Source: Rhizobium acidisoli
Lineage (GTDB): Bacteria > Pseudomonadota > Alphaproteobacteria > Rhizobiales > Rhizobiaceae
Length of the DNA: 64,000 bases
Direction of reading: 5' to 3'
Assembly (NCBI RefSeq): GCF_002531755.2
Contig: NZ_CP034999.1
Span: 248,001 to 312,000, forward strand
A program made the translations under genes and the position numbers. This document shows, in pieces, positions 1 through 21,054 of this stretch; position 1 is the first letter of the stretch; each line of letters starts with the position of its first letter. The notes below the pieces were generated by a model. That model was not told where the DNA came from, made no database searches, and saw only the letters and a program-made list of their open reading frames with translations.

Positions 1-1092
1 CGCAACGCAGCGCTCCAGATCGGCAAAACTCAAGCATGCGCGCCGCTCGGATGGATATTCGTCACGGTCGGCCACCGAACGGCCCGACGAGCCCGGATAG
101 CTCGCGAGAACCCCGTTGACCTTGCCCAACAGCCGTTCAACCACGCCGCCGTGATGAACCCGGCCACGATCGCGAAGGCGGATACGGATGCCGTAATCAT
201 CACAGCCTTGTTGGAATGCATGCCCCTTAAACTCCATCGCCGAGTCCGTGACGAGCAGCCGCGGCCGACCGAACATCGGCCAAGCGTGATTGAGTTGGCG
301 CGCGGTAAGCCATGTGTCTTTCGGGCACATGGCCTGGGCGAGGCATAGCGCCACAGACAGCACCGACGGCTTCTCCAAGGTGAGGCAGAAGCCGAGAATG
401 GATCGTGTCGCCACGTCCGTGATGACAGTCAAATAGGGGCGGCCGACAAACACACCAGCCCCATCGACCACCTCCACGAAATTGATATCGGTCGGCGTAT
501 GGTCGATCTGGCACACGGCGAGCGGGTGCGGAGCGTGGATATAGCCGGGCCGCGGCTTCAGCCGCAAAAGGTGCTTCGGATTGGCCGAACGCTTCTTCGC
601 GATCTCTACCGGCGAAAACAATGCCGGGATGCGCCGGGCGACCGTCACATAAGCCGGCACGGCAAGACCGGCTTCCTCGCAGCGCGCGCGGATCTCGTCG
701 ACCACGGGAGCAAGTGCGGTCGACTCGAGCGTTAGCCACTTCTCGCGAAGCGTGGCCTCGATGATCTCCTCGACCTGTTCCGGCAGTCGTTTGCGCCGAC
801 TGACGGCGGTGCGAGGCAGCAGGGCCGTTACCGTCCGATCAGCGCGATAACGGGCGAGTAGATTGTAGATTTGCCGCGAGGTGAGCCGCAGTTCAGCCGC
901 CGCGCATGTTATGGCAACCTGCCTCGGATCGTTGCCATCTAGGATCTTGTCCAACACGCGGGCGACCCGCCGCGCAGTCGACCACTGCTCGTCCGAGATG
1001 GCAGGATGTGCCGGCAAGATCCGGTCGTGCAATCGCTTTGGCACAGGTGCTTCATTGAAATCGTTAGCGGAAAATCGCCGCAGATTTAGCAC
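1..1092 (-). CDS. tniA: TniA/TnsB-like DDE transposase (3' end beyond window)
   Basis: The reading frame is open from a GTG at 1092 to the window edge (364 codons) with in-frame stops just upstream (TAG at 1101 and 1095). An N-terminal helix-turn-helix-like part (LTSRQIYNLLARYRA) precedes an RNase H-fold integrase core. The core has a first Asp in CQIDHTPTD, a second in LVTDSAMEF and a Glu in HHGGVVERLLGKV, the D,D,E set of the TniA/TnsB/Mu group. Family members are roughly 500-600 residues, so the C-terminus is missing. It reads inward from a TGTCATTT-type terminus at 1135, as tniA does in Tn402/Tn5053/Tn552-like elements; tniB and tniQ homologues would be expected left of the window. Confidence 0.85.
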   Translation of the reverse strand, partial: MLNLRRFSANDFNEAPVPKRLHDRILPAHPAISDEQWSTARRVARVLDKILDGNDPRQVAITCAAAELRLTSRQIYNLLARYRADRTVTALLPRTAVSRRKRLPEQVEEIIEATLREKWLTLESTALAPVVDEIRARCEEAGLAVPAYVTVARRIPALFSPVEIAKKRSANPKHLLRLKPRPGYIHAPHPLAVCQIDHTPTDINFVEVVDGAGVFVGRPYLTVITDVATRSILGFCLTLEKPSVLSVALCLAQAMCPKDTWLTARQLNHAWPMFGRPRLLVTDSAMEFKGHAFQQGCDDYGIRIRLRDRGRVHHGGVVERLLGKVNGVLASYPGSSGRSVADRDEYPSERRACLSFADLERCVA

Positions 1093-1097
1093 CTAAA

Positions 1098-1135
1098 CCT
1101 AACGGGCGTATGACGCTTTCCGGATTGAAATGACA
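1098..1135 (-). repeat. Terminus of a Tn402/Tn5053-like transposon
   Basis: Read on the minus strand from 1135 inward, the DNA begins TGTCATTTCAATCCGGAAAG. The TGTCATTT start is typical of Tn402/Tn5053/Tn552-family ends. It lies 43 bp upstream of the transposase start and exactly where homology to the RHE_PE00001-type gene stops. The bases AAGTA at 1136-1140 are the candidate 5-bp target duplication, whose partner lies outside the window. Confidence 0.65.
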
Positions 1136-1136
1136 A

Positions 1137-2216
1137 AGTAAAAGCCACACCGGCATCGCCCTCACGCGTTTGGACGAGCGCATCGCCCGCTCGCCGGTCG
1201 GGCAGGGCTTTATCGAGCGCACCCAATTCACGGATGCCTGCGCCTCGCTGTGGATCGACGGCGAGCTCGTCCACCTGGAAGACCTCGTCCTCCACGACCA
1301 TACACGCGATATTCGCACACCCACGCACGAACTGGCCATCGCCCGCGACGTGCTGCGCACCCGCCGGCGCATCGCCGCCCAACTCCCCGGCTGGGCGCTG
1401 TCCTCCGACGGCGTTCGTGCGCTGAGGCAGACGTCAGATGTGACGGCGGCCAGCGCAGACTCCGCTGAGGAGCCTGGCACCACCAGACGTGCGATCCCGA
1501 CCGATCCGGAAGGAGAGGTGGATGACGGTGACGACGTCGAGCACCTTCCTGGTGTCGACTATGCCGCCATCGATGCCGTGCTGGCCCGCTCGGAGGCGGC
1601 GATCGCGAAAGCAAAGACGCCCGGCCCGGCTCGGGCCAAAGATCCGATGGTCTACGATATTGATTGGAACGAGGATGAACGGCTCGACGAATGGCGCGGC
1701 GTGTTGCGCCAGGCGGAAAACCTGCCGGCCGTCCTGCAGGCCATCGTCGCCCTCGATGCCTGGAGCGAGCTTGCCGTCCTGCAGCACGCTCCCTGGCTCG
1801 GCCGATTATTAGCGGCGTCGATCCTGCGCCAATCCGCCGTCACGACAGGCGCGCATCTCGCCGCCATCAATCTTGGCCTCAAAACCATTCCAGTCGATCG
1901 GCGCCGGCATCATGATCGGGAGACCCGGTTGCTCGCTATTGCTTACGGCCTGATCGCGGGCGCCGAGCTCGGTCTGAAGGAGCATGACCGGCTGGCGTTG
2001 GCGCGCACGATGTTTGAGCGAAAGCTGGGCGGACGCCGGACGTCTTCAAAGCTGCCGGAGCTGGTCGAGCTGGTGATGGCAAAACCATTGGTGTCGGCCG
2101 GGATGGTGGCGAAGACGCTCGAGGTGACGCCGCAGGCGGCGCGGCGGATTGTTTCGGAGCTCGGCCTGAGGGAGATGACAGGGAGGGGGAGGTTTCGAGC
2201 ATGGGGGATTTTATGA
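1137..2216 (+). pseudogene. RHE_PE00001-family protein, 5'-truncated
   Basis: The frame is open from the transposon junction and matches, from memory, the rhizobial plasmid family called RHE_PE00001 (DUF1612 plus a DNA-binding HTH). Recognisable parts are [35 protein letters not shown] and the C-terminal HTH around [19 protein letters not shown]. No convincing start codon exists: the first possible one is a TTG at 1170 inside the conserved part. About 30 N-terminal residues seem to be lost to the transposon insertion. A downstream TTG could still produce a protein of about 348 residues. The function of the family is unknown; these genes often sit near small plasmid stability-like genes. Confidence 0.75.
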
Positions 2217-2857
2217 TGAAACGAGATGACACGGTGAGAGTAGGTATGAGCAATGAGAACGTAATAAATGCATCGGCGACCGCTGAGCGTCTGATGCGAG
2301 CTTACCATATCCACTGTGTCGCACCTGATCCTGATACGCTGTTTAGATTCTTAGAAGCGGCTCACAGCGCTAATGACCGGCTGAAGAAGTCAGCCGGTGT
2401 TGAATTCATCGATATTCCCGAATTTATCGCCTTAAAATGCTTGCGAAATTTCTTCCACCACCATGACGAGTTGCGCCACGTTGTGCGGGTCGTTCCGACT
2501 GCAGGCCTGCCTATTCTGACTGATCTGCTATTTATGTGCCTCGCGCCGCGGGACCTGATCAATGAGGCAATAGTCCAAGCGCCAGATCGTTTCAGAGCGC
2601 AAACACAAGCGGCATGTGACTTCGCTTTTCATTGGTACGGCACGACGGTGAATATCAATCCTTGTCTTTTCAACTTCGTGGTTCACGCATACGAGCGGCT
2701 CGTGGAGGCAAGCATTCCGATCTCGGGCGATGAAGCAGATGAATATCGACGAAGCTATGATTTCGAGGCGCAGGCGGGGCAATCTCACTTCGTCGACGGT
2801 CGCATTTCAACGACGGCTGGCAGCCTTGATGATCTCCTTTCAGAAATCATGAGTTAG
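2201..2857 (+). CDS. Hypothetical protein, 218 aa
   Basis: The ATG at 2201 overlaps the end of the upstream frame and follows a GGGGGAGG-rich stretch; an alternative ATG at 2246 has GAGAGTAGG just upstream. The protein is soluble-looking, with no signal peptide or membrane segment. It contains a His-rich patch ([15 protein letters not shown]) and a Cys/Trp-containing centre ([14 protein letters not shown]). Base composition is visibly more AT-rich than that of the neighbouring RHE_PE00001 gene. I do not recognise a family. Its position between that gene and the methyltransferase cluster suggests accessory cargo. Confidence 0.6.
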
Positions 2858-3019
2858 TTTCATCGCGCAGCGCAGTTACTAACTGCACGATGCCTCGGCG
2901 TCCTTGAACGGTGGGTTTTTATAACAACTCAAGCCGCCGTTTGATGGTCACTGACAGTTGTCCCGGTTGATAGACCATGAAAACATGGTATCATGATTTC
3001 TTTAAATGAGGAGGGGCCG

Positions 3020-3208
3020 ATGCGAACTACGACACCGGACGGGGAAGAGAACCTTCAAGTGACGGTCCCAAGCGTAACGAAGAAAAGCCTCAAGATTAGA
3101 GCTGCGGAAAGCGGAGATTCGATGCGAGTAATCGTCCTTCGGGCATTGGCGGAGGCCGGCATCCAAGTGCCGGATGGGGAGTTGCAGGATCGGAGGAAGA
3201 GGAAATGA
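3020..3208 (+). CDS. Small ribbon-helix-helix-like protein, 62 aa
   Basis: The ATG at 3020 follows GAGGAGGGG, a strong ribosome binding site, and is preferred over the ATG at 2993. The core NLQVTVPSVTKKSLKIRAAES followed by SMRVIVLRALAEAGIQVP has the beta-strand/helix/helix pattern of RHH proteins of the ParG/CopG-antitoxin type. Its last codons overlap the ATG of the methyltransferase gene (3205), so the two are translationally coupled. By position it may be a transcriptional controller of the modification operon, analogous to the C proteins of restriction-modification systems; the alternative is a plasmid-stability antitoxin. Role inferred only. Confidence 0.6.
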   Translation: MRTTTPDGEENLQVTVPSVTKKSLKIRAAESGDSMRVIVLRALAEAGIQVPDGELQDRRKRK

Positions 3209-4302
3209 TTCAGGGCGCAACAGCCGGTGATCAAATACAAGCCCAACCGACAATAGATCAGGCAGGCCCCGTCGCATCTGTAGTCGATCTTTTTTGTGGG
3301 GCAGGCGGTCTGTCTCATGGTTTCTATCAGGAAGGCTTCAGGATCGTCGGTGGCGTCGATTTCGATGAAAACTGCCGATACGCCTTCGAGGCGAACAATG
3401 ATGCTCCTTTCATCCGGCGAGATGTCGCCAAGCTCACTGCGCGTGAAATCGATAGCTTGTTCCTGTCAGGGCGGCCGCGGGTCCTGATCGGTTGCGCTCC
3501 GTGTCAGCCCTTCTCGACCTATAATCAGAAGAATGATGATCCAAAGTGGGAATTGCTCTCGCAGTTCGCCAAGCTGATCGACCAGGTTCGTCCTGACGTC
3601 GTTTCCATGGAGAACGTCCCCCGCCTTTTGGACTTCAAAGACGGGCAACTCTTCAACGACTTCGTCGCAACGCTGCGCAATGCGGACTATGATGTCGTCT
3701 GGAAGGTCTTGTATGGCCCAGACTTTGGGATGGCCCAGACACGGTCCCGATTAGTTCTCTTGGCCTCGAGGCTTGGAAAGATTGAACTACCTGTGCCGAC
3801 CCACATTGATGGCTATCGGACTGTCCGGGACGAAATTGGGGATTTGCCGGCACTCACGCATGGCAGTGTCGATCCGACCGACCATTTGCATTGTGCAAGC
3901 CGGTTGTCTGAAATTAACGTCAAGCGTATCGAAGCATCAAGGCCTGGCGGCACTTGGCGCGATTGGCCGAAGGAGCTTGTCGCTCGTTGCCATACAACGA
4001 CAACAGGCAAGGGGTATTCGTCTGTCTACGGCCGCATGACATGGGATTCTCCATCGCCAACGATAACCACGCAGTTCTTCGGGTTCGGAAACGGTAGGTT
4101 CGGACACCCTGAACAGGAGCGCGCCCTCTCGTTGCGCGAAGGCGCTATGCTTCAGGGTTTTCCTCGTGACTACGAGTTTGCCCCTCCGGGTGATCGTATC
4201 CACTTCAAGGCAGTTGGGCGCCTGATTGGAAACGCTGTGCCCGTAAAACTCGCAAATGCGATCGCTAAGGCCGTCAAATTACATTTAGGGCAATACGAAT
4301 GA
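3205..4302 (+). CDS. dcm: DNA cytosine-5 methyltransferase
   Basis: This is a 365-residue C5-methyltransferase of usual length. Motif I (DLFCGAGG, residues 28-35) binds AdoMet. Motif IV GCAPCQPFS carries the catalytic Cys100. Motif VI (ENVPR) and motif VIII (QTRSRLVLLAS) follow, and motifs IX-X end in GFPRDYEF and IGNAVPVKLANAI. The variable target-recognition region lies roughly at residues 220-280. The start overlaps the RHH-like gene, and the stop overlaps the next start (ATGA at 4299), so the three genes form one translational unit. A Vsr mismatch nuclease about 6.5 kb away would repair the T:G mismatches left by deamination of its product. The recognition sequence cannot be deduced. Confidence 0.93.
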   Translation: MIQGATAGDQIQAQPTIDQAGPVASVVDLFCGAGGLSHGFYQEGFRIVGGVDFDENCRYAFEANNDAPFIRRDVAKLTAREIDSLFLSGRPRVLIGCAPCQPFSTYNQKNDDPKWELLSQFAKLIDQVRPDVVSMENVPRLLDFKDGQLFNDFVATLRNADYDVVWKVLYGPDFGMAQTRSRLVLLASRLGKIELPVPTHIDGYRTVRDEIGDLPALTHGSVDPTDHLHCASRLSEINVKRIEASRPGGTWRDWPKELVARCHTTTTGKGYSSVYGRMTWDSPSPTITTQFFGFGNGRFGHPEQERALSLREGAMLQGFPRDYEFAPPGDRIHFKAVGRLIGNAVPVKLANAIAKAVKLHLGQYE

Positions 4303-6296
4303 CCATTCCCCGCAAGCTCGTCATGCGCATAAGTCTCAACGCGCTCGAACATTTAGGGATCAATCTTTATAGCAACATTCCAGCCGTCCTTTCAGAAGTC
4401 GTTGCAAATGCCTGGGATGCTGATGCGGAAGAGGTCACCGTCATCATCGACAAGGCCGCGGAAACGATCACGATTGAGGATGACGGAACGGGGATGGACC
4501 GTGATGGCGTAATTGATCGTTTTCTGACCGTTGGCTTCAAGCGCCGGGACGAACTCGGAGAGGAAACGGCGTCGGGGCGACGGCCGATGGGCCGAAAGGG
4601 GATCGGAAAACTTTCGATCTTTTCAATTGCCCAAGTCGCTGAAGTTTACACGACGGTCAACGGTCAGAACACGGCTTTTAGTATGGACCGAGAAGTGATC
4701 AGAAAGGCAATTGCCGGAAAAGGTCAGCAGGAATATGAACCGACAGAATTGACGACCTGGCCAGCAGGCCTGACGAAAGGTACTCGGATCGTCCTGTCGA
4801 AAATCTCCAAATCACTGTCGGGGATGACTGTGGAGGGTTTGAAGCGCCGGGTGGCGCGTCGCTTTTCGGTAATCGGTCCCAAGCACAATTTCAAAGTGAA
4901 AGTAAACGGTAGCGAGATCGGTCCTGAAGATCGCGCTTACCACAACTCTCTTCAGTATATCTGGACCTACGGCGATCAGAGTGAGTTCGTCAGTCAGTGC
5001 AAGAAGTTGGAGCGCCCAGCAGAGGCGCGACTTGCAAACATATCGGTTGAGCTGAAGAAGGCCGGCCTTACACTTACGGGATGGCTTGGGAGCGTCGCAA
5101 AGCCAGACCAATTGAAGGACGAGGAAGGCGATAATCTAAACCGCCTGGCGATCTTCATGCGCGGTAAGATGGCGCAGGAAGACATCTTGGACGAATTTGG
5201 CCAAAAAGAGATTTATGCGGACTACCTAATTGGGGAGCTTCACTGTGAAGAACTAGACTTGGATGACCATGGCGATATCGCCACCAGTAGCCGCCAATCG
5301 CTTAAAGAGGACGATCCAAGATTTGAAGCTCTTCGGAAAGTCGTCCTTTCCGAGTTGCGATATATAGCGAGCAAGTGGAGCGACTGGAGACGATCAGATG
5401 GAGCAAAAGCTGCAGCTGGCGTCCCTGCCGTGGCCACATGGCTTAATGGACTGCAGGGAGACACGAAGAAGAAGGCTGAACGCTGGATAGGACGCCTGAA
5501 TACGATTAGGGCGAACGATGAGGGCGATAGGCGCGAACTGTTGAAAGCATCAATCCTCGCGTTCGAAAGCTATCGCCGCCGTGAAGACTTAGACCGGTTA
5601 GATACGATCAGCGACTCCAATCTTGCTGAGATACTTCCGATCTTCGAAAGCATTGATGATCTTGAGGTCAGTTATTATGGCCAAATTGTCCGGGGACGTG
5701 TGAAAGTCATTGAGACGCTCCAGAAGAAGGTCAATGACAACGAGAAGGAAAAGCTTCTACAAGCTTACGTGTTTGAGCACTTGTGGCTACTCGATCCGTC
5801 TTGGGAGCGGGCAAAAGGAAGCGAACATGTGGAAACACTCGTTCAGACCTACCTCGCTTCGAACACCGCGTCTCTGACCGCGAAAGAGAAGAAGGGCCGC
5901 ATCGACATTGGCTATCGGACCGCGACAGGTAAGCACATCATCGTCGAAATGAAACGGGCCGATGTCGCAACTCCGCTCGATACACTAGTAGCTCAAGTCC
6001 GAAAATATCGCGACGGAGCCAGAAAGGTTCTGGCGACTACCCAAAACAAAGGCTGGCCGATTGAGATAGTTTGCCTCGTCGGCAAGGCGCCACCAGAATA
6101 TTACGATGTTGACGGTACCGGTCCACAAGGTGTTGAATCGGCGTTGGCGGGCGTAAATGCCCGAATCGTCTTCTACAATCAGTTGCTGGAGAATGCTCAA
6201 CGATCCTACGCAGATTATCTGGAAGCACATGAGAAGCTTGATAATCTCTGGGGCGTGTTCAACGCTATTGATGATTTTTCTACATCCAGTGAGTGA
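4299..6296 (+). CDS. MORC-like GHKL ATPase with C-terminal PD-(D/E)XK nuclease domain
   Basis: 665 residues. The N-terminal GHKL (Hsp90/MutL/MORC) ATPase shows the N-box EVVANAWDAD (E33, N37, D40), the G1 box DDGTGM (61-66) and the G2 loop GRKGIGK (98-104). A long helical middle follows. Near the C-terminus D536 (RIDIGY) and E550-x-K552 (IVEMKR), followed by QVRKYRDGARKV, form a PD-(D/E)XK nuclease signature. Prokaryotic MORC-like ATPases linked to restriction-modification genes are a published class, and 4-nt overlap with the methyltransferase supports a restriction role. I infer an ATP-driven clamp or switch controlling DNA cleavage at unmodified sites. It could instead be a nickase or a repair partner. 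Confidence 0.8.
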   Translation: MTIPRKLVMRISLNALEHLGINLYSNIPAVLSEVVANAWDADAEEVTVIIDKAAETITIEDDGTGMDRDGVIDRFLTVGFKRRDELGEETASGRRPMGRKGIGKLSIFSIAQVAEVYTTVNGQNTAFSMDREVIRKAIAGKGQQEYEPTELTTWPAGLTKGTRIVLSKISKSLSGMTVEGLKRRVARRFSVIGPKHNFKVKVNGSEIGPEDRAYHNSLQYIWTYGDQSEFVSQCKKLERPAEARLANISVELKKAGLTLTGWLGSVAKPDQLKDEEGDNLNRLAIFMRGKMAQEDILDEFGQKEIYADYLIGELHCEELDLDDHGDIATSSRQSLKEDDPRFEALRKVVLSELRYIASKWSDWRRSDGAKAAAGVPAVATWLNGLQGDTKKKAERWIGRLNTIRANDEGDRRELLKASILAFESYRRREDLDRLDTISDSNLAEILPIFESIDDLEVSYYGQIVRGRVKVIETLQKKVNDNEKEKLLQAYVFEHLWLLDPSWERAKGSEHVETLVQTYLASNTASLTAKEKKGRIDIGYRTATGKHIIVEMKRADVATPLDTLVAQVRKYRDGARKVLATTQNKGWPIEIVCLVGKAPPEYYDVDGTGPQGVESALAGVNARIVFYNQLLENAQRSYADYLEAHEKLDNLWGVFNAIDDFSTSSE

Positions 6297-6356
6297 AATT
6301 GACCCGAATTTCCCTGAGCGTCATGTTGACCTGAAACTGCCTGTGGGAGGCCGGAG

Positions 6357-7178
6357 ATGGCGCACACCTTTACTACATTGCGTCATCCGGTTGAGAAGCT
6401 CTTGGAGGCCGAGCACTTTCTAGCACGTCTGGTGCAGGCTGACGGGATCGTCTTTCAATTCGAACTTAACGCGTTCCTGTCGGCCTGTCGCAGTGTTACC
6501 TTCCTACTGCAGTCCGCGTTTTCTGAAGTTCCCGGCTTTTTGGAGTGGTATGAGCAGCGCCGCGTCGAAATGGCCGCGGACAAGGCGATGGTATTTTTCC
6601 TGAAACTACGAAACCTTTCCCAAAAGGCGGGCCCCGTCTCTTATGTAGGTGGGGGTCGCCTCAATGGCGGCTGGACCTACAGATTTGTTCATGGCTCGGA
6701 GCGTGTCCCTGAAGAATTGCATAATAGGGACATCTGTAGCTGCTGCGCCGAGCAACTTCGTAAGGTTGCTGGCGTGGTTGCCGATTGCGCCAACACCTTC
6801 CCGTTCTACTCATGCCCCGCTGCTGCCTTTACCATCGAAGGGATGGCGTACCTCAGATACACCATGCATGACGCGGAGCGGGCGATTGGCGTGCCTGTGG
6901 GATATAGCGATGTGGTGGGCTTCGGCCCGGATTTGAAGCTGCACTATTTGAAGCGCGAGCTTGAGCCACTCGACCGTACGACCTTAATCCGCATGGCTGC
7001 CGGCGAATTCAGGTACGGGGCTGAACAGTTGGTATTTCCGGACATACAAGGACGCGATTTGGCCGACGATTTGGCCGCGCTCGTCGATCCAAGAGATCCT
7101 GATGGCGGCGACATGCGCACGATTTTTCTAAGGGCCATGGGCGCACGCATTGATCGGCAAAGCTCGGACGACGCTTGA
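6357..7178 (+). CDS. HEPN-like hypothetical protein, 273 aa
   Basis: The ATG at 6357 follows GGGAGGCCGGAG and lies 60 bp after the ATPase gene on the same strand. The N-terminal 100 residues look helical (FLSACRSVTFLLQSAF, then FLEWYEQRRVEM) and contain R85-N86-L-S-Q-K, which resembles a degenerate HEPN RNxxxH motif. A Cys pair (ICSCCAEQL) and a mixed C-terminal part follow. HEPN proteins are often RNases or their partners in toxin-antitoxin and defence loci; here the usual His is not obvious. Its neighbours, a nuclease-fused ATPase and a PIN gene, suggest an effector or regulator of the same system. The family assignment is tentative. Confidence 0.5.
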   Translation: MAHTFTTLRHPVEKLLEAEHFLARLVQADGIVFQFELNAFLSACRSVTFLLQSAFSEVPGFLEWYEQRRVEMAADKAMVFFLKLRNLSQKAGPVSYVGGGRLNGGWTYRFVHGSERVPEELHNRDICSCCAEQLRKVAGVVADCANTFPFYSCPAAAFTIEGMAYLRYTMHDAERAIGVPVGYSDVVGFGPDLKLHYLKRELEPLDRTTLIRMAAGEFRYGAEQLVFPDIQGRDLADDLAALVDPRDPDGGDMRTIFLRAMGARIDRQSSDDA

Positions 7179-7822
7179 TCCTGGGATCTCGTCGCGCGAT
7201 CCGACGCCTATCAGTTTGAGTATAGTGATGCGGCACCGTAGCGTGAGAAGGACAATGCTGTTTTTGGAGGGTTCGATTGGTGCAGCGCGTAATTGTCGAC
7301 AGCAACATGCTCCAAGAGCCGGGCTTGCGCGCCTACTTCCTGGCAGCACCCGATAATTTGGTGGTGATGCCGGATTTTCTCTGGGCTGAAATCTACAAGC
7401 AGCAATCAATCATGAGCCTAGCGTCCGCTTTCTCGGTGATCCGCGACTTTCCGGATCGTCTCGTCGGCCTGCGATCGGCGAGCGAGTTGGCGTGCCTGGA
7501 TCCTAGGAGCGCTGATCTCGTCGAACGGATGCTTTATCAAGACGTGCCGGATAAGATGCGATCGACCTTTGAGGCCATAGTCCTTGCTGAGCAGGGCGAG
7601 GATTGGGTCTTGAAGCAATTGGCGGAGCGTTGGTCGGCGGCTTCTGCGAACATGGATGGGATGCTCGAAGGTGCGGAAGATATCGTCCAATCGCTTCCCG
7701 AAATTGCGGACATCTTCACCGCGGAAGAGAAGCGCCGCTGTCGGACGAGTTCCAAATATACCTTGGAGATGATGGAGAAAATTTTTGGAGCCGCTGACCA
7801 GCTTTACGAAGAATTTATAGGT

Positions 7823-7829
7823 AGGTACG
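7823..7829. repeat. Target site duplication of the IS21 element (left copy)
   Basis: AGGTACG here is repeated exactly at 10314-10320, immediately outside the other end of the element. A 7-bp duplication lies within the 4-8 bp range usual for IS21-family insertions. Confidence 0.85.
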
Positions 7830-7941
7830 TGTGTTTAAGCATGGAATGTTGACCCCTCTGGCGGGGTGATACTTATCCAATTTTGACCCCCCTTGGATTT
7901 CATCCGACCATCCGGCTTTTGCCAGTGGATGGGGTGGGGAG

Positions 7942-9441
7942 TTGAAGAGAGTGGATACGATTGCCCGTGTCCGACGAGCCTTCCATGTTCAGGGCTGGTC
8001 GGTGAAGAAGATCACCAGAGAGCTGAATGTTTCGCGTAATACGGTTCGCAAAATCCTGCGTTCTGATGCGACTGATTTTGTCTACAAACGAGAACATCAA
8101 CCGTTGCCCAGGATCGGAGCCTGGAAGGGTGATATTGAACGGTTCCTCATTGCCAACGAAGGCAAGGCATCGCGCGAACGGCTGACGCTGATCCGGATTT
8201 ACGAGGAGGTTCGGGCACTCGGCTACGACGGCAGTTATGACGCGATCCGGCGATATGCCAAGACCTGGGCGAAGAACCGGGGAGCCGTGACGGCGGAAGC
8301 CTATGTGCCCCTCTATTACGCGCCGGGCGAAGCCTACCAGTTCGACTGGAGCCACGAGATCATTCTGATCAACGGGGTGACTACGACCGTGAAGGTCGCG
8401 CATGTCCGGCTCTGCCACAGCCGGATGATGTTCGCCCGAGCCTATATGCGTGAGAGCCAGGAGATGGTGTTCGATGCCCATGACAAGGCCTTCGCCTTCT
8501 TCCGTGGCACCTGTACGCGCGGCATCTACGATAACATGAAGACTGCGGTCGAGGCGGTGTTCGTCGGCAAGGAGCGACAATACAATCGCCGCTTCCTGCA
8601 GATGTGTAGCCACTATCTGGTCCATCCCGTTGCCTGCACGCCCGCATCCGGATGGGAGAAGGGACAGGTCGAGAACCAGGTCGGACTGGTTCGAGAACGC
8701 TTCTTCACACCACGTCTTCGGGTTAAAAGCCTGGAAGAGCTGAACGTCTGGCTGCTCGATAAGTGCATCGCTTACGCCAAGGCACACCGTCATCCTGAAC
8801 AGACCGAGCGAATGATCTGGCAGGTGTTCGAGGAGGAACGCGGCAGCCTCGTGCATTACGTCGGGCCGTTCGATGGTTTCCACAGCGTCCCGGCCTCGGT
8901 GTCGAAGACCTGCACGGTCCGTTTCGACAACAACAAATACTCCGTCCTCTCGACTGCGGTCGGCCGCCCTGTTGAGGTTCACGCCTATGCCGAGAAGATC
9001 GTCATCAGGCAGGACGGCGTGAACGTCGGTGAGCATCCGCGTTGCTTTGGCCGTGGCGAGACGATCTACGATCCCTGGCATTATGTACCCGTTCTGGCTC
9101 GCAAACCCGGCGCTTTGCGCAATGGTGCGCCGTTCAGGGACTGGGTGTTGCCAGCGGCGATGGAGAAGGTCCGCAAGCGCCTGAAGAGCGTCCACGACGG
9201 TGATCGGCAAATGGTCACAATCCTTGCATGCGTTCCCACCGATGGTCTGACGGCCGTCGATGCGGCCTGTCAGGAGGCGCTGGACCAAGGCGTCTGCTCG
9301 GCCTCGGTGATCATCAACATTCTGGCTCGTAGTCGTGACCCGGCTCCGGCCGCAACCCTGCAAACCCCGGATGCGCTTCGATTGACCCATGAACCGGTCG
9401 CCGACTGCGCACGCTATGACAGCCTCAGGAGGGCAAGCTGA
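7942..9441 (+). CDS. istA: IS21-family transposase IstA
   Basis: 499 residues, starting at a TTG (7942; GTG 7951 is an alternative). An N-terminal HTH ([21 protein letters not shown]) is followed by a DDE integrase core with Asp in YQFDWSHE, Asp in [10 protein letters not shown] and Glu in [12 protein letters not shown], then the C-terminal end-binding region ([17 protein letters not shown]). It carries out strand transfer together with IstB. The stop overlaps the ATG of istB (TGATG at 9439-9443), as is usual for this family. Confidence 0.95.
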
Positions 9442-10175
9442 TGGAACGCACACAGGTTCTCGAACTGATGAGCACGCTGAAGCTCTATGGAATGCGCAGC
9501 GCCTACGACGAGGTCATGGGCAACGGCATCAAACGGCAGCACGAACCGCCGCGCATTGTCGGTGATCTCTTGCAGTCGGAGATCGCCGAGAAGCAGGCCC
9601 GCTCCATTCGCTACCAACTCAGCATCGCCAAGCTGCCCCTCGCTAAGGACATCGACGATTTCGACTTCACCGATACGCCGGTCAATGAATCCCTGGTGCG
9701 GGAGCTGGCTACCGGCACCTTCGTCGCCGATCAGCGTAACGTCGTCCTCGTCGGCGGCACGGGAACCGGAAAGAGCCATCTCGCCATCGCGATTGCCCGT
9801 GCACTGATCCGCAACGGAACACGCGGGCGCTTCTTCAACGTCGTCGATCTGGTCAATCGGCTGGAAACGGAAACGCGCAGCGGCAAGCAAGGGCGGACGG
9901 CCGACTATCTCAATCGTCTCGACTTCATCATCCTCGACGAACTCGGATACCTGCCATTTGCCCTGGCCGGCGGCCAACTCCTATTCCATCTGATCAGCAG
10001 GCTCTACGAGCGCACGTCGATCATTGTCACCACGAACCTGGCGTTCGGTGAATGGCCGACGGTGTTCGGCGATGCCAAGATGACGACGGCACTTCTCGAC
10101 CGCCTGACGCACCATTGTGAGATCGTCGAGACCGGAAACGAATCCTGGCGCTTCAAGAACCGCTCTCAAAGCTAA
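9441..10175 (+). CDS. istB: IS21-family helper ATPase IstB
   Basis: 244 residues of the DnaC-like AAA+ group, the usual length. The N-terminal region ([19 protein letters not shown]) contacts the transposase. Walker A is [16 protein letters not shown], Walker B is [12 protein letters not shown], and the sensor region is [13 protein letters not shown]. IstB selects target DNA and activates IstA. The start overlaps the istA stop. Confidence 0.95.
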
Positions 10176-10809
10176 AGCCGAAGAGCCCCATCACCCGCAC
10201 TTGGCCTACCCTCTGCAACCCGGCCAGCGCCGGGAAGGCCAAGCGCTGATCTACAGCACAGGGGGGTCAAAATTGGATAAGCAAAAGGGGTCAATGTTCG
10301 GTGCTGATTGACAAGGTACGAGACGTCTATTGGCCATGTTTCTCCAGACCATCGCTATGATGCGTATCTCTATCGATATGCGTTAGCAATTATCATTTAT
10401 TCGCTGTGGTGGATCAGGAACGGCAGCCAGCTGCCCCAACGGCTCGACAAAGCACGGAACGATTTCATTGACCTCGGCTTCGCCGTATACGCGACATACT
10501 TTGATGGCTTTATGACACATGATGCGAAGGCCGGCTGGATGTATTGAAATCTGTGCGGGGCTTTGAAGGCGATTGGCGCAAGACATTTGCGCTTGTAACG
10601 CCGTACCAGAGGCTTTTTCACAACGCCGGTCGTTCCCCACTTAGCCATTCGACAGGAAGTCAGCTACCGGCGGCGGTCGCGCCCCGGGTGTGGCTGGAAA
10701 GTTTTCGTTGCGGCGAAATTTTCCCCATGGATAGAAGCATTTGAAATTCCCGGCGCGACCATACGGATTAGAAGCTAGTCAGATATGCGAGGAAACAGTT
10801 AGGAAAAGG

Positions 10810-11235
10810 TCAGGATAGGAAAGAAATCAACTTTTTCCCTAGCGAAACGGCATCACGTGTTTCGCACCCCCAGACGATAACAACACTCCAACCCATGGCC
10901 TCAAGTTTGCTCTCGGCCAAGGCATCCCGCTCCTTGTTTCGGCGAAATTTTTCTTGCCAAAAATCGGCGCGTGTTCGTGGGGTCGTGGCATGTTTGCAGC
11001 CGGCGTGGCGATGCCAGAAGCACCCATGCACGAAAACTACTTTTTTACGTCGTGGAAACACTACGTCAGGGCTACCGGGCAAGTCCTTACGGTTGATGCG
11101 AAAGCGGTACCCAAGAGCATGTGCAACTCGTCTTACTGCCATTTCCGGCTTCGTGTTGACTTGCCGGACGCTCGCCATAATTTTCGATCTGACCGCAGAG
11201 ATGGGCTCGTCATTCACCATGAGTTTCGGTAGCAT
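10810..11235 (-). CDS. vsr: Very short patch repair endonuclease Vsr
   Basis: 141 residues, typical for Vsr. The fold is recognised from MASVRQVNTKPEMAVRRVAH, LPGSPDVVFPRRKKVVFVHG with its metal-binding Asp, CFWHRHAGC (Cys/His zinc-site residues), and FWQEKFRRNKERD. Vsr nicks at T:G mismatches arising from deamination of 5-methylcytosine, so it protects the sites of a Dcm-type methyltransferase, here the gene at 3205-4302. It is on the opposite strand and separated from that operon by the IS21 insertion and about 260 bp without a clear gene (10548-10809). Confidence 0.92.
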   Translation of the reverse strand: MLPKLMVNDEPISAVRSKIMASVRQVNTKPEMAVRRVAHALGYRFRINRKDLPGSPDVVFPRRKKVVFVHGCFWHRHAGCKHATTPRTRADFWQEKFRRNKERDALAESKLEAMGWSVVIVWGCETRDAVSLGKKLISFLS

Positions 11236-11513
11236 TAATTTTTGGCTGTTTTGAGGCTTGCCCTCGCAGCGCCGGGGCGGCGCCTTGCCAATCTGATAGA
11301 AGTGGATAGTCCCGTCGGCGGATCGGGTTGCGAAGGAATAATCCTGGCTGAGGAATGGTGCCGTACTGATCTACGAGCCACAATTACCTGTAGGATGGGC
11401 TACGACTACGAACTTGCATTGCTGGAATTCGCCAGGCGTAACCAGTCATCTGCAGCATGGATACCAACCTTGTGAGCGCGGTCGTAGCAATCCGCAGTAT
11501 TCAAAGCGGAGAG

Positions 11514-12704
11514 CTATGCGCCAGATGACAGAACTTTCGACGGCTTCTTCTTCGAAGGTCGCTTCAAAGCGCCAATTTTCCGAAAATAGTCGATGACTTC
11601 TTGATTCAGGCCACCTGTGAAGGTGCGCTCAATCGCGTCGTTCCCGAAGAATTTCCGATAACGCGCAAGAGTATCCTCGGCGGCTCTCGTCGCACCGCCG
11701 GTAATGACCGTGATCTTTGGCTTGATCCTTTCAGTCAACTGGATGCGTTTTAGTAGGTGTTTGAACTCGAAGTCAGCCGCGGGCATCGAATAGCCAAAAA
11801 AGATCCATCTAGGAGCGTCTTTGAGGTGGCTTTCGGCTGTTCGCCAAGTGGCCGCATGCATCGGAAAATCGAGTGCCTTTCGAAAGCTGAAGGTGGCAAT
11901 GCGCGTTCCAAGCGCCTGCGCCCTGCAATGAGGGCAATGCGGTTCATACGACTTTGGTATTTCCATCGCAGGGTCGAGGTTCGGCATCGCTTTCCAGTCG
12001 CGTGCTTGAAACAACGTCCTAGCAACCCCCTCCGTTTGGTCGGGTTTGACCCAAAAGAGTTCTCGACAAGCATCGCAGTAGAGCCAGTTGATAGAACCAT
12101 GCGGTTTGAGCAGGCGCAGCGTTTTCGCCTCCGGCGGGGCCGCAGGCCGAAGACTGACCTCTCCCTTTGAGAAGCCCGCATCCGAAGCATTGCATCCGTA
12201 ATCGATGCGATCGATTTTCTGACGCAGGGCAACCCCCCGTTCGATGACCATGTCCCAATTCATGCTCAGAACAGCCGTATTGTCGACATTGAGTTCGTCG
12301 AACAGAGTATTTAGCAACTTGCTTTCGGCAGATCGCGACCGAAGGTATCTGTTGTAGTCCTGCTGCAGCATGCGAACGATCCGAACGATCATCGCCCGTC
12401 GGACGAGACGGAGTTTCGCTGCCGAATACGAAGTTCCCAAGTGATGACCCGTGTTGGCTGAAAGATCGACAAGTGTGAAAATATCTTCCAACTCCGGCCA
12501 CAGCTTGCTTGGATTCGTCTCCCCACCGTTGAAAGTATCGTCTACGAACTTCCTGAGAAATTCGACCTGTTTGACGCTCGGCCCGTCAGTTTTCAGGGAC
12601 GCCGTATCGAGCAGGTGCTCTGTGAAATCGGTAGCGAGTGGCAGCCCGGCAGTCTTTGAGAAACCTGCCCCCACGATCAATAAAACACCCGGATCGAATT
12701 CCAC
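11514..12704 (-). CDS. SIR2-domain protein
   Basis: I chose the GTG at 12704 (396 aa) because GAGGTG lies 6 nt upstream; a longer frame opens at a GTG at 12779. The NAD-binding Rossmann motif is LLIVGAGFSKTAGLPLATDF, followed by SMNWDMVIERG (the N-x-D element) and LKPHGSINWLYC (catalytic-type His). A Cys cluster (CDAC and CPHC) suggests a zinc ribbon, as in sirtuins. Stand-alone SIR2 proteins are common NADases or signal-binding enzymes of phage defence (Thoeris, DSR and related types). Its place beside Vsr and the Dcm/ATPase operon fits a defence island. Whether it deacetylates or cleaves NAD cannot be told from sequence alone. Confidence 0.8.
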   Translation of the reverse strand: MEFDPGVLLIVGAGFSKTAGLPLATDFTEHLLDTASLKTDGPSVKQVEFLRKFVDDTFNGGETNPSKLWPELEDIFTLVDLSANTGHHLGTSYSAAKLRLVRRAMIVRIVRMLQQDYNRYLRSRSAESKLLNTLFDELNVDNTAVLSMNWDMVIERGVALRQKIDRIDYGCNASDAGFSKGEVSLRPAAPPEAKTLRLLKPHGSINWLYCDACRELFWVKPDQTEGVARTLFQARDWKAMPNLDPAMEIPKSYEPHCPHCRAQALGTRIATFSFRKALDFPMHAATWRTAESHLKDAPRWIFFGYSMPAADFEFKHLLKRIQLTERIKPKITVITGGATRAAEDTLARYRKFFGNDAIERTFTGGLNQEVIDYFRKIGALKRPSKKKPSKVLSSGA

Positions 12705-12857
12705 GCCGTTCACCTCGCTTTTTGCGCGATTATGCCGCGCAGCCAACAGAACCCCACGCTCATTTGCCGGACGGGGCACCCGTCACATAGCTGTAACTAC
12801 GCCGCACATCCCGAACAGCGGGTACACCATACGCGTCTACACCATCATCGGGAGGAT

Positions 12858-13436
12858 ATGTTACGGACCACCGTCGAGAAAAGCATTAATAGAGATTATC
12901 CCAAATTGTCAGGCAGTTGGGATTTTCGAATTGCGGGTCGTGGGTTCACATCCCTTCAAGGCGATGAAGTCGGTTGGCATCTTAATATACAGGAGGGTTT
13001 CTGCATCATGCATATTGAGACTGAACAACATGGTGAGATGTCGTGTCAAATCGATGCTAATGAGGAGATGGACCACTACGTCGGAACCTTGCGCTACAGG
13101 ATCTTCGAGGTCGGCTTTATCTCCGGTTCCAGTGTAGGGGCTGTGAGGGCTCAGTTTCGAGCCATCTGTGAAATGACCGATGCAGGAGGCATGGTTCGTA
13201 ACGGTATAATTATGACGGGCTATCACAACCGTGCTTTTAACGGTGACGTATTGCGCGTCGACGGCGAAATTATCGGCGAATGGGCTTCAGATGATGAAGA
13301 GTGGTGTCATTTCACCGCAGTCGACACCGTTGAGGTCACCCTCAGCGCGCCATCACCTTGGATGCTGCATGACTCGATCGCGACTTGGATGAACTGCGAC
13401 GGTGACACAACTGAGGCTTACCAAACCTCTGCCTAA
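12858..13436 (+). CDS. Hypothetical protein, 192 aa
   Basis: The ATG at 12858 has GGGAGGAT immediately upstream, so it is preferred over an upstream open extension from 12732. The protein is acidic and predicted soluble. It has a central Gly-rich beta-like stretch (FEVGFISGSSVGAVRAQFR) and an acidic segment (GEWASDDEEWCHF). It is transcribed divergently from the SIR2 gene across about 150 bp and converges on the SRAP gene with a 20-bp gap. No family recognised. Confidence 0.6.
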   Translation: MLRTTVEKSINRDYPKLSGSWDFRIAGRGFTSLQGDEVGWHLNIQEGFCIMHIETEQHGEMSCQIDANEEMDHYVGTLRYRIFEVGFISGSSVGAVRAQFRAICEMTDAGGMVRNGIIMTGYHNRAFNGDVLRVDGEIIGEWASDDEEWCHFTAVDTVEVTLSAPSPWMLHDSIATWMNCDGDTTEAYQTSA

Positions 13437-13456
13437 TTTCACCGGCACCCGCTCGA

Positions 13457-14230
13457 CTACAGTAAGCTGCCATGTTCCACCGGCTCTCCGGATTTCGAAA
13501 TGATCGTGGATCCGTACGGTTCGCGGGACGAGATGATCAGCGCGTCATCCGATAATGGGCGGGCCAGTTCCTTGGCCTCTTCCCATGGCGCCCGCATCCA
13601 GGTGTCCGTCTCTTCCTTCGTCAGCAACAGGACTGGCATCGCCTTTCCATGGATTGGCTTCACCAGGTCGTTGCGATCCGTGGTCAAAAACCCACAGAGA
13701 TCGTCGGTGGTCAGCCCGTCTCGGACCTTCCGGACACTCTGCCACTGCGGCACATGGATGCCGGCAAAGAACATCAGCGACTTTTGCTCGTCGCGGGCGA
13801 ACCAGGCATTTGGCACCTTACCACCTTCCGCTTGGCTGGCCGGATCCGGTTCCGCGAAACTGGTGACCGGGACGAGGCATCTATTTTCGACGCCGAACCA
13901 TCGCTTCCAATGCGGAAAATTGAGCTTGCGCACATTGGTGGTGCCGCGGTCGGCCTCCATGCGGATCAGCTCTTCGAGATCGAATGGCTTGCCCTTGGCC
14001 GCAAGTTTCTCGGCTTTCGCTTTGGCGGCCTTCTCAAGCGTGAAGCGCGGCGAGGGCAGGCCCCAGCGCGCATGGACCAGTTGTTTCTTCCGGTCCGCGG
14101 TATTGCGGACGATCGGCCCCATCTGATCGGGGTTCATCTGGTAGGCGGGCATCAAGTTGATCAGGCTTTCGGCGTCCTGGGCCAACTTCGCGACCCAGTC
14201 CTTGTCTTCCATGCGATAAAGATTGCACAT
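13457..14230 (-). CDS. yedK: SRAP/YedK (HMCES-like) abasic-site shield protein
   Basis: 257 residues starting MCNLYRM. In SRAP proteins Cys2, exposed after removal of Met1, forms a covalent bond with abasic sites in single-stranded DNA. Other SRAP marks are the early Asn (PAYQMNPDQM), VHARWGLPSPRF, RCLVPVTSFAEPD with the conserved Glu, FFAGIHVPQW, and HGKAMPVLLL with the conserved His. It sits beside a LigD-type ligase and the imuA-imuB-dnaE2 cassette, so it belongs to a DNA damage block. No LexA-type box is obvious in its own 60-bp upstream gap; it may be co-transcribed with the ligase gene. Confidence 0.9.
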   Translation of the reverse strand: MCNLYRMEDKDWVAKLAQDAESLINLMPAYQMNPDQMGPIVRNTADRKKQLVHARWGLPSPRFTLEKAAKAKAEKLAAKGKPFDLEELIRMEADRGTTNVRKLNFPHWKRWFGVENRCLVPVTSFAEPDPASQAEGGKVPNAWFARDEQKSLMFFAGIHVPQWQSVRKVRDGLTTDDLCGFLTTDRNDLVKPIHGKAMPVLLLTKEETDTWMRAPWEEAKELARPLSDDALIISSREPYGSTIISKSGEPVEHGSLL

Positions 14231-14292
14231 TGTAGGCTATCTATTCCGCTGAGCTCGACTGGCTGACAATCTAGCCTATGGCGCTGATTTCG

Positions 14293-15345
14293 CTAGTCGA
14301 GCCGGAAGACGTCGGCATTGTCCTGGCGATCGCGCAAACCCTTGTAGGATGGATGGCGAAGTTTCCGGTCTGTCGTCCAGGCACGAAACTCGATCTCGGC
14401 AATCAGGGTCGGCTCGACCCAAACAATATCGGCACTTCCGGAATAGGGCAGGGGCGGCTGCTTTCGCTTCCAGCGCAGCTTGTCCAGCATCTTCCGCAAC
14501 CGGACGGTTTCCGTTTCCTTGAAGCCCGTCCCGACACTTCCAACGTGGACGAGATCGGCTCCGCGATAGGCAGCAAGCACCAACGAGCCAAAGCCGGCAG
14601 GGGATGCCGATGACTTCTCATAGCCGATGATGAGGAAAGCCTCGCTCTGGACGCATTTGATTTTCACCCAATCCCCGGTCCGGCCGGAACGATAGGGCCG
14701 ATCGAGGTGCTTGCCGACGATGCCTTCCAGGCCGAGGCGGCAGACATGCTCAAGGAGGACGGCTGGTTCGACGTCGAGTGTCTCCGATAGCCGAATGCCA
14801 CCGTCTTTGCCGGTCAACAGGTCATCGAGGAGATGCCGGCGCGACCGGTATTCGACGCCGCGCAGATCGTGTCCGTCGAAATAAATGAGATCGAACGCGT
14901 AGAAGATGGCGCCGGAAGCTCGGTTACCCGCTTGTTTGCCGGATGCGCCGAGCGACTGCTGCAGCAGCCCGAAATCCGGCCGCCCCTCTGCGTCGAGCAC
15001 AACGGCCTCGCCATCGATGATCATCGTCGCCGGCCCGAGCGCGCGGGCCGCTTCTAGGATCGCCGGAAACCGGCGCGTCCAGTCATGGCCGCCGCGGGTG
15101 AGGATCCGGATATCCTGCGGCTCGATATGAACGGCGAGGCGATAGCCATCCCACTTCACCTCCCAGCTCCACTTGTCTCCCTTCGGAGCATGGCTCTTCA
15201 ATTGCGCCAGCGCGGGCTCGACACGGTCAGGCATCGGATCGAAAAGCAGCTGTGGCTGGGCCGGATTGCGCTTCTTGCGCGGCCGCGAACGAATCGGAGC
15301 CTCGGTATCACGAAGGAGCGGCTTTGATCTCGGAGGCTTCGTCAT
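14293..15345 (-). CDS. ligD: ATP-dependent DNA ligase, LigD/LigC type
   Basis: 350 residues containing only the ligase domain of LigD-type enzymes (no polymerase or phosphoesterase part). The adenylation motif I is EVKWDGYRLAVHIE with Lys64. Other motifs are MIIDGEAVVLD (III), FYAFDLIYFDG, LEGIVGKHLDRPYRSGR (IV) and DWVKIKC (V). The OB fold follows (LVHVGSVGTGF, LRKMLDKL) and the end is EFRAWTTDRKLRHPSYKGLRD. The first 40 residues are basic and probably disordered. It seals nicks or ends in non-homologous end-joining; no ku gene is in the window. A degenerate copy of its 3' end lies at 33127-33300. Confidence 0.9.
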   Translation of the reverse strand: MTKPPRSKPLLRDTEAPIRSRPRKKRNPAQPQLLFDPMPDRVEPALAQLKSHAPKGDKWSWEVKWDGYRLAVHIEPQDIRILTRGGHDWTRRFPAILEAARALGPATMIIDGEAVVLDAEGRPDFGLLQQSLGASGKQAGNRASGAIFYAFDLIYFDGHDLRGVEYRSRRHLLDDLLTGKDGGIRLSETLDVEPAVLLEHVCRLGLEGIVGKHLDRPYRSGRTGDWVKIKCVQSEAFLIIGYEKSSASPAGFGSLVLAAYRGADLVHVGSVGTGFKETETVRLRKMLDKLRWKRKQPPLPYSGSADIVWVEPTLIAEIEFRAWTTDRKLRHPSYKGLRDRQDNADVFRLD

Positions 15346-15546
15346 CGTGGCAGTTCAGCAGAAAAACCTTAAAGACACTGTGACGATACGGCATTTGTCC
15401 CCGTAATCCACGCTGGAGATGTGCAGGCGCTGCGAAAAAAACTCAGCCGGTCGCTACCGGCCTGATTCCCATGGATATTCTTCTGATTCCTCATGTTCAG
15501 GATAATATTCCCATCATTCCGGTTGCTTGACTCTTCAGTTCGGCGG

Positions 15547-15561
15547 GAACAGAAACAGAAC
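15547..15561 (+). promoter_or_regulatory. LexA (SOS) box of alphaproteobacterial type
   Basis: GAACAGAAACAGAAC is an exact GAAC-N7-GAAC direct repeat, the complement of the GTTC-N7-GTTC LexA operator known in Rhizobiales. It lies 55 bp upstream of the imuA start, in the expected place to make imuA-imuB-dnaE2 damage-inducible. It could also affect the divergent ligase gene 200 bp away. Confidence 0.85.
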
Positions 15562-15615
15562 ATCCGCATTTTGCTCGACATGATGTCGGCGGCCAACACG
15601 AGGGAGCCGTGAACG

Positions 15616-16368
15616 ATGACTGCTGCCCGCGAAAGGGTGATTTCCGATTTGCGCGAGCGCATCGCCTCGCTGGAAGGCGTGTCAGCCAGAAAGGCTGGTT
15701 GTCTTTCCTTCGGCGTGCCGGAAATTGATGCGGTCCTCCCAGGCGGTGGTCTTGCCTATGGCGCCCTGCATGAGTTTGCCGGCGGCGGGCAAGGCACGGT
15801 GGATGGTGCCGCGGCGGCGCTTTGCGCAGCTGGCATCGCGGCGCGCACCAAAGGTCCTGTGGTCTGGTGCCTGACGCGGCCGGACCTGTTTTTTCCCGCA
15901 CTCGCTGAGGTCGGGCTGCATGCGGACCGGGTGATTTTCGTCGAGTCCGACAAGGAAGAGGATGTGCTCGCCAATATGGAGGAGGGGCTGTCCTTCGGCG
16001 GATTGGGTGCTGTGGTCGGTGAACTCGTCCGCCTGCCGATGGTCGGCTCGCGCCGGCTCCAGCTGGCGGCCGAGAAAACAGGGACGATGGCGCTCGCCGT
16101 CCGACGCTGGCGCAGGCAGACGGAGGCGAATGATCTTGGCCAACCCACGGCATCGACCACAAGGTGGCGGGTCAGCGTCATGCCGTCGGAGGAGCTGCCA
16201 GTGCCGGGTGTCGGAAGGCCCCAATGGTTGCTGGAATTGATGCGCGTAAAAGCCGGTGAATGTGCTGAATTTCTCGTAAGGGCGTGCGATGACAAGGGTT
16301 GTCTCGATCTATCTCCCGGATCTGCCGACGGATCGCATTCGTCGCGCCGATCCGTCCATTCCGCCTGA
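15616..16368 (+). CDS. imuA: ImuA, SOS mutasome accessory protein
   Basis: 250 residues with a RecA-like fold: a helical start, then FGVPEIDAVLPGGGLAYGALHEF, VVWCLTRPDLFFPALAEVGLHADRVIF and LQLAAEKTGTMALAVRRW. No convincing Walker A Gly-Lys-Thr is present, as is usual in ImuA. The protein works with ImuB and DnaE2 in damage-induced translesion synthesis and mutagenesis. The first gene of a three-gene operon behind a LexA box, it overlaps imuB by 80 bp. Confidence 0.93.
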   Translation: MTAARERVISDLRERIASLEGVSARKAGCLSFGVPEIDAVLPGGGLAYGALHEFAGGGQGTVDGAAAALCAAGIAARTKGPVVWCLTRPDLFFPALAEVGLHADRVIFVESDKEEDVLANMEEGLSFGGLGAVVGELVRLPMVGSRRLQLAAEKTGTMALAVRRWRRQTEANDLGQPTASTTRWRVSVMPSEELPVPGVGRPQWLLELMRVKAGECAEFLVRACDDKGCLDLSPGSADGSHSSRRSVHSA

Positions 16369-20800: not shown

Positions 20801-21054
20801 ATGGCCGGATCCAGAGGGAAGGGGAGGTTGTCCACCTTGTTGCCCAGCAGCTGTTCGACCTGTCAGGCGACCTGGTCGGCCTTGCGGATCGCGATCAAGA
20901 GTTCAAACTGCCGACCGGGCGGGGTGATGAGTTTGCCCATGGTGGTGGCCCAGATCCACGGGATAAGCCGAAGCCTGTGGTAACCCCGCGCGACATGTTC
21001 GTGCCTGACCTTCACATCGATACGCTGAAGGTGAAGAGCAGGAATTTTCAGTGA
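17797..21054 (+). CDS. dnaE2: DnaE2 (ImuC) error-prone DNA polymerase III alpha subunit
   Basis: 1085 residues, the normal length. The PHP domain is N-terminal ([33 protein letters not shown]). The polymerase palm includes [17 protein letters not shown] and the catalytic acids in [15 protein letters not shown], then [12 protein letters not shown] and [15 protein letters not shown]. Helix-hairpin-helix and OB-fold parts follow ([21 protein letters not shown]). It extends primers past lesions as part of the ImuA-ImuB-DnaE2 mutasome. A 46-bp degenerate piece of this gene's sequence type is embedded in the scar at 33298-33343. Confidence 0.96.

Follow-up and report, generated by a model that had tools for sequence, protein, structure and literature searches.

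We analyzed a 64,000-nucleotide stretch (hereafter the window; positions 248,001 to 312,000) of the contig NZ_CP034999.1 from Rhizobium acidisoli, a 671-kb plasmid-like contig (C2) in a genome of 7.5 Mb and five contigs. Near the left end of the window lies a cassette in which a Dcm-type methyltransferase, a GHKL ATPase fused to a nuclease and a Vsr endonuclease surround two further genes, one HEPN-like and one with a PIN fold, which we call satellites (Table 1). A preliminary description, made from the DNA alone, had proposed the locus as a new defence system. Here we find a restriction-modification (RM) core of a known kind accompanied by members of two satellite families that recur beside unlike methylation-based defences.

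Table 1. Features of the cassette and its left flank (window coordinates)
Feature	Position	Strand	Evidence or remark
RHE_PE00001/DUF1612-family gene	1170-2216		left flank; NCBIfam match
Small RHH-like open reading frame	2993-3208 (perhaps from 3020)	+	weak Pfam FitA-like RHH match, E 0.021, 15.2 bits (cut-off 27)
Dcm-type C5-cytosine methyltransferase	3205-4302	+	Pfam DNA_methylase, E 5.9e-58; TIGR00675, 147.9 bits (cut-off 100.65); methylase motifs
GHKL ATPase with C-terminal PD-(D/E)XK-like nuclease, BbrUII/HgiDII restriction enzyme	4299-6296	+	NCBIfam NF050001; motifs
HEPN-like satellite protein, 273 residues	6357-7178	+	helical-bundle model; weak HEPN structural matches
PIN-fold satellite gene, N-terminal piece	7277-7829	+	relatives found with this piece; hidden Markov model match
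IS21-type element	7830-10313	+	TGT...ACA ends; 7-bp target duplication; istA 7942-9441, istB 9441-10175
PIN gene, C-terminal piece (frame)	10308-10547	+	aligns with C-terminal half of relatives; first bases are the element's end, gene part after 10313
Vsr mismatch endonuclease	10810-11235	-	TIGR00632, 139.8 bits (cut-off 97.85)
SIR2-like protein, start codon uncertain	11514-12779	-	weak PADLOC SIR2 match, best E 7e-8; GAGFS, NWD, HGS

The preliminary description had called the first three genes of the cassette translationally coupled; they lie on one strand and overlap by 4 bases at both junctions, and because of these overlapping reading frames and the strong family matches their arrangement is beyond chance. 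Its assignment of a C5 methyltransferase and of a GHKL ATPase fused to a PD-(D/E)XK nuclease was borne out by family matches and motifs: the 665-residue ATPase-nuclease reached 830.4 bits, where the cut-off is 550, with the NCBIfam model NF050001 for restriction enzymes of the BbrUII/HgiDII family, and it retains its GHKL motifs as well as a nuclease-like motif, D...EMK. The gene that it had called Vsr on the opposite strand is an ordinary Vsr. GHKL/MORC ATPases that accompany cytosine methylases, restriction nucleases and Vsr were already treated as RM systems by Iyer et al. 2008 (PMC2292703), and because of this precedent and the NF050001 match we classify the Dcm and GHKL-ATPase/nuclease pair, on its sequence, as a type II RM system of the already known BbrUII/HgiDII kind, with which it shares the Dcm methylase, the ATPase joined to a restriction nuclease and a nearby Vsr. 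The proposal of a candidate new cluster is not supported, as this pair belongs to a catalogued family, and a new MORC system is rejected on the same ground. For the methylase of this kind, M.HgiDII, a passage of PMC5867850 gives GTCGAC as the reported recognition site. The RHH-like reading frame is present as described, but its family match is below cut-off, and we rejected it as a conserved member since no such frame stood directly upstream of dcm in any of five loci inspected by eye. A CopG-type gene does occur upstream of a different Dcm in MZA loci of S. meliloti and R. etli.

Unlike the eight other BbrUII-like loci opened, the window carries two satellites between ATPase and Vsr. The HEPN-like gene stands on the same strand as the core, as had been stated; its protein matched no family at E <= 1 in the Pfam copy used, nor any ABC-ATPase part. 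Its model is a helical bundle whose top structural matches, all weak, are HEPN toxins. We take the catalytic motif of HEPN RNases to be Rx4-6H; among 120 relatives the R-N pair is kept in 119, but the histidine position holds lysine in 114, histidine in 5 and alanine in 1, and most of the family lacks the catalytic motif. According to passages of PMC3710099, at least 16 HEPN clades are linked to RM systems, and such proteins are interpreted there as second-line RNases. PrrC with the PrrI RM system is one example of a HEPN gene beside a DNA-modification defence with a proposed second-line role; the window's protein, with its putative HEPN-like fold, would resemble it in this and differs in the unmatched ABC-ATPase part, in the mostly lysine residue at the HEPN histidine and in belonging to a family with no PADLOC model. 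Kinship with a DUF5677 protein near a BbrUII-like system (L056) was considered and rejected at an hhalign probability of 0.4%, a comparison of a profile with a single sequence that leaves room for remote kinship.

The PIN assignment held for fold and acidic residues but not for an intact gene, since an inserted element splits the reading frame. We take this element to be of the IS21 family from its istA/istB layout, and it also occurs elsewhere in the genus. Relatives of the PIN gene are uninterrupted, for example the 276-residue P0122 of Aminobacter sp. BA135, which is 85% identical over the N-terminal piece. That piece corresponds to the region with D8 and E38, and the piece after the element to the region with D232, D235 and D252 (P0122 numbering); all five residues are invariant in 16 of 16 family sequences, and the family shows both a PIN fold and conserved acidic residues. 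Judged from the split frame, the product is very probably non-functional in this genome. Fold and acidic residues are common to the satellite and to VapC and other PIN-domain nucleases, whereas compared with these the satellite is about twice as long, has a long helical insertion and keeps variable partner genes (HEPN-like, HNH-like, drmC). The PIN_8 protein of a Herbaspirillum locus (L036) was rejected as kin (hhalign probability, 0.8%; again a profile against a single sequence, with remote kinship possible).

We then surveyed the neighbourhoods of satellite relatives in 16 HEPN-like loci (L004, L036-L047, L062-L064) and 11 PIN loci (L050-L055, L072-L076), after dropping weak HEPN-like matches (H2, H3, G091, G352) and one locus matched over residues 13-96 only and without a marker (L077). 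Overall, relatives lay beside methylation-based defence genes (type II RM, DISARM, Druantia or MZA) in 11 of 16 HEPN-like loci and 6 of 11 PIN loci. The HEPN-like gene neighbours Dcm, Vsr and DISARM drmD and drmMI in L037; Dcm, Vsr and GHKL in L039; Druantia druE-druF in L041; DISARM drmA-drmB-drmC in L044 and, by similarity, L046; MZA genes in L045; and Dcm and Vsr in L047, where Dcm alone lies within the limit of the marker survey. Eco29kI and Vsr lie about 8-9 kb from it in L040, the exception among ten measured positive loci, the other nine of which have at most 600 bp between the gene and the neighbouring cluster. L063 pairs it with a methylase, a type II restriction enzyme and Vsr, along with phage-tail/gene transfer agent-like genes, and L064 has the identical HEPN-like protein, together with Vsr. 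In L036, a protein 82% identical to the window's accompanies the Eco29kI restriction enzyme, Vsr, a GHKL ATPase, a helicase-Mrr and the PIN_8 protein; its Herbaspirillum host is presumably of a different class from the window's. Read along one strand (1-11594), that locus encodes Dcm-like, Eco29kI, Vsr, GHKL ATPase, helicase-Mrr, a 176-residue unknown, PIN_8 and HEPN-like proteins, an independent cluster on the same theme. PIN relatives accompany MZA, Dcm and Vsr in four loci (L051, L052, L055, L074), where the PIN gene follows or adjoins a protein of ~255-275 residues that bears cysteine motifs of HNH type and has a weak match to HNH_5 in Pfam (E 0.0067), and DISARM in two (L072, L073). None of the 22 marker queries matched in the remaining HEPN-like (L004, L038, L042, L043, L062) and PIN (L050, L053, L054, L075, L076) loci; in L062 a phage terminase gene lies about 1.8 kb from the HEPN-like relative.

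In these loci the two satellites kept apart: the 16 HEPN-like loci contained no PIN relative, nor did the 11 PIN loci contain a HEPN-like one. They nevertheless share one position: L044, L046, L072 and L073 carry a single DISARM type (81-95% identity to L044 in drmA and drmB), in which drmC either ends 59-82 bp away from a convergent HEPN-like gene (L044/L046) or is followed after 25 bp by a PIN gene in its own orientation (L072/L073). This shared drmC slot is the strongest clue we have to a similar role of the two. In L044 (9412-9945) and L046 (9405-9938), a 177-residue gene immediately precedes the HEPN-like one; its L044 copy has no Pfam match, and its RNN...KEY stretch looks, we presume, HEPN-like. 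What the window has in common with these DISARM, Druantia and MZA loci is a satellite immediately beside core genes; unlike them, it has no drmA-drmB, druE-druF or mzaB-mzaC among ten scanned proteins. In this PADLOC scan of ten proteins from 1170-13436, a subset of the open reading frames there, those three systems were represented among the best 25 matches only by two methylase models, DrmMII and DruM, both matched by Dcm, and no model there matched the HEPN-like protein or PIN piece.

Random DNA served as control and was searched for the same 22 markers under identical limits. Of its 70 stretches, each 20 kb long, 40 were drawn from 20 single-contig genomes of the class, and the other 30 from the contig of the window (20) and from five plasmids (two per plasmid). 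None contained a marker (0/40 and 0/30, together 0/70). After merging of loci whose satellite proteins were at least 80% identical (L004 and L047, outside this comparison, were counted singly), 9 of 14 HEPN-like loci (Fisher p 5e-9) and 2 of 7 PIN loci (p 0.007) remained positive, so that the PIN association amounts to two independent events. The DISARM, Druantia, MZA, Eco29kI and other markers were derived from the positive loci themselves and bias the counts toward them; with Vsr and Dcm markers alone, merged HEPN-like loci were positive in 7 of 14 cases (p 8e-7), and the window's own Vsr and Dcm marked 8 of 16 HEPN-like and 4 of 11 PIN loci before merging, against 0/40 and 0/30 controls. 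Because the controls were random DNA rather than defence islands, the comparison ties the satellites to defence loci but does not reveal a preference for particular ones.

Linkage to this particular core is another matter. The ATPase matched 35 plasmid records, of which 6 were opened; among 397 same-order genomes, 2 scored above the family cut-off, and one of these is the genome of the window itself. The conserved RHH-Dcm-MORC-HEPN-PIN order that a neighbourhood survey was to reveal did not appear: none of the eight other BbrUII-like loci (L048, L049, L056-L061) had either satellite or SIR2. They range from a close core relative (L048, 70% identity), in which Vsr directly follows the ATPase, to a distant one (L049, 25%). 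In Aminobacter sp. BA135, relatives of the ATPase (98%), HEPN-like (79%) and PIN (85%) proteins share one contig of 5,765,864 bases, which establishes a shared contig only; if its tags step by five, the HEPN-like (SLT36_23680) and PIN (SLT36_23675) genes would be neighbours. The unequal identities, 98% for the core against 79% for the HEPN-like protein, suggest partly separate histories for core and satellites.

The SIR2-like gene lies on the opposite strand as claimed and retains its GAGFS, NWD and HGS motifs, but the protein had no match in Pfam or NCBIfam and its PADLOC matches were weak. We rejected it as a component: it was missing from the 8 BbrUII-like, 16 HEPN-like and 11 PIN loci, and no relative at E <= 1e-10 occurred in 296 other same-order genomes. 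It is probably a separate neighbour.

The cassette forms a stretch of ~11 kb whose G+C, 0.53, is below that of either flank (0.64 and 0.61; the IS21-type element within the cassette, 0.59) between the RHE_PE00001-family gene and a conserved block from about 13467, and is bordered by open reading frames of 218 (2201-2857) and 234 residues (12732-13436) without convincing family matches. Among the matches listed for 120 genomes of the genus (own included; two candidates per genome scored), congener DNA matched the left flank, the element and the region rightward from about 12984, and none outside the own genome covered about 2222-7828. One congener (G1110) is 92% identical over 12984-13643. Rightward of the cassette (13457-21054) lie what we take from their translations to be an SOS-response peptidase, an ATP-dependent DNA ligase, ImuA-like and ImuB-like proteins (the latter a polymerase) and a DnaE2-type polymerase; a second copy of 13467-16400, at 98%, occupies C2:109992-112923 of this contig. 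The RHE_PE00001/DUF1612 gene recurs at 1747-2877 of L056, on a plasmid of Rhizobium sp. WSM4643, upstream of clustered Vsr, Dcm and BbrUII-like genes with a DUF5677 gene among them, and is a possible marker of a plasmid hotspot.

With evenly balanced confidence, we favour a mobile defence cassette in which a BbrUII/HgiDII RM core is backed up by HEPN-like and PIN satellites, the PIN gene being disrupted and SIR2 separate. Dcm would methylate host sites, which by homology may be GTCGAC; unmethylated DNA would be cut by the GHKL-ATPase/PD-(D/E)XK protein, and Vsr would repair T:G mismatches arising from deaminated 5-methylcytosine. Between core and Vsr, the HEPN-like and then PIN-fold genes would add members of families that attach to many unlike methylation-based defences. 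Gene content, the family of the core, the insertion and the recurrence of both families beside defence loci are observed, whereas the enzymatic activity, trigger and RNA target of the satellites we infer: silent while the DNA defence works, they would cleave RNA or arrest growth once it is blocked or overwhelmed. In this genome the IS21 insertion disrupts the PIN gene. By analogy, they are probably a back-up RNase alarm, because this argument has been made for RM-linked HEPN proteins in passages of PMC3710099. Among the titles and abstract openings found in the literature, none described this combination of core and satellites.

Plain clustering of independent defence genes in a plasmid hotspot, with no joint work, is a rather unlikely alternative. 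The lower-G+C cassette between conserved flanks, the recurrence of the RHE_PE00001 gene upstream of a BbrUII-like system in WSM4643, the unlinked SIR2 and the different histories implied by the Aminobacter identities all fit it, whereas the tight spacing in nine of ten measured HEPN-like loci and the occupation of the same drmC slot by both families do not. We hold it doubtful, though worth stating, that both satellites are plug-in alarm modules that occupy interchangeable slots on unlike methylation-based defences, sense failure of DNA cleavage and answer with RNA cleavage; the HEPN-like protein would then use lysine for histidine or be a sensor rather than a cutter. We are just as doubtful of a free-standing toxin-antitoxin pair merely located in a defence hotspot, in which the HEPN-like protein restrains the PIN ribonuclease: the genes are adjacent on one strand here with adjoining tags in Aminobacter, and loss of most catalytic histidines would suit a non-catalytic partner, yet the families usually occur apart, as the 16 and 11 loci attest, and their recurrent adjacency to methylation-based systems would need a separate reason. 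One integrated new system of RHH, Dcm, GHKL-nuclease, HEPN-like, PIN, Vsr and SIR2 acting together is very improbable: gene order, 4-bp overlaps and the three relatives on one Aminobacter contig speak for it, but the unit occurs in none of the 8 BbrUII-like, 16 HEPN-like or 11 PIN loci and the five loci inspected by eye lack the RHH-like frame before dcm.

Of the proposal of modification-linked DNA cleavage joined to RNase-fold genes, the functional theme is sensible, and both families are enriched beside methylation-based defence relative to random DNA; the single new system is not supported. If the back-up reading is true, two unnamed families would be general accessories of DNA-modification defences and would add parts absent from the PADLOC defence catalogue, and the DISARM slot that holds either satellite would offer a ready site for comparing their jobs. 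This would reveal what bacteria fall back on once phages have blocked their restriction.
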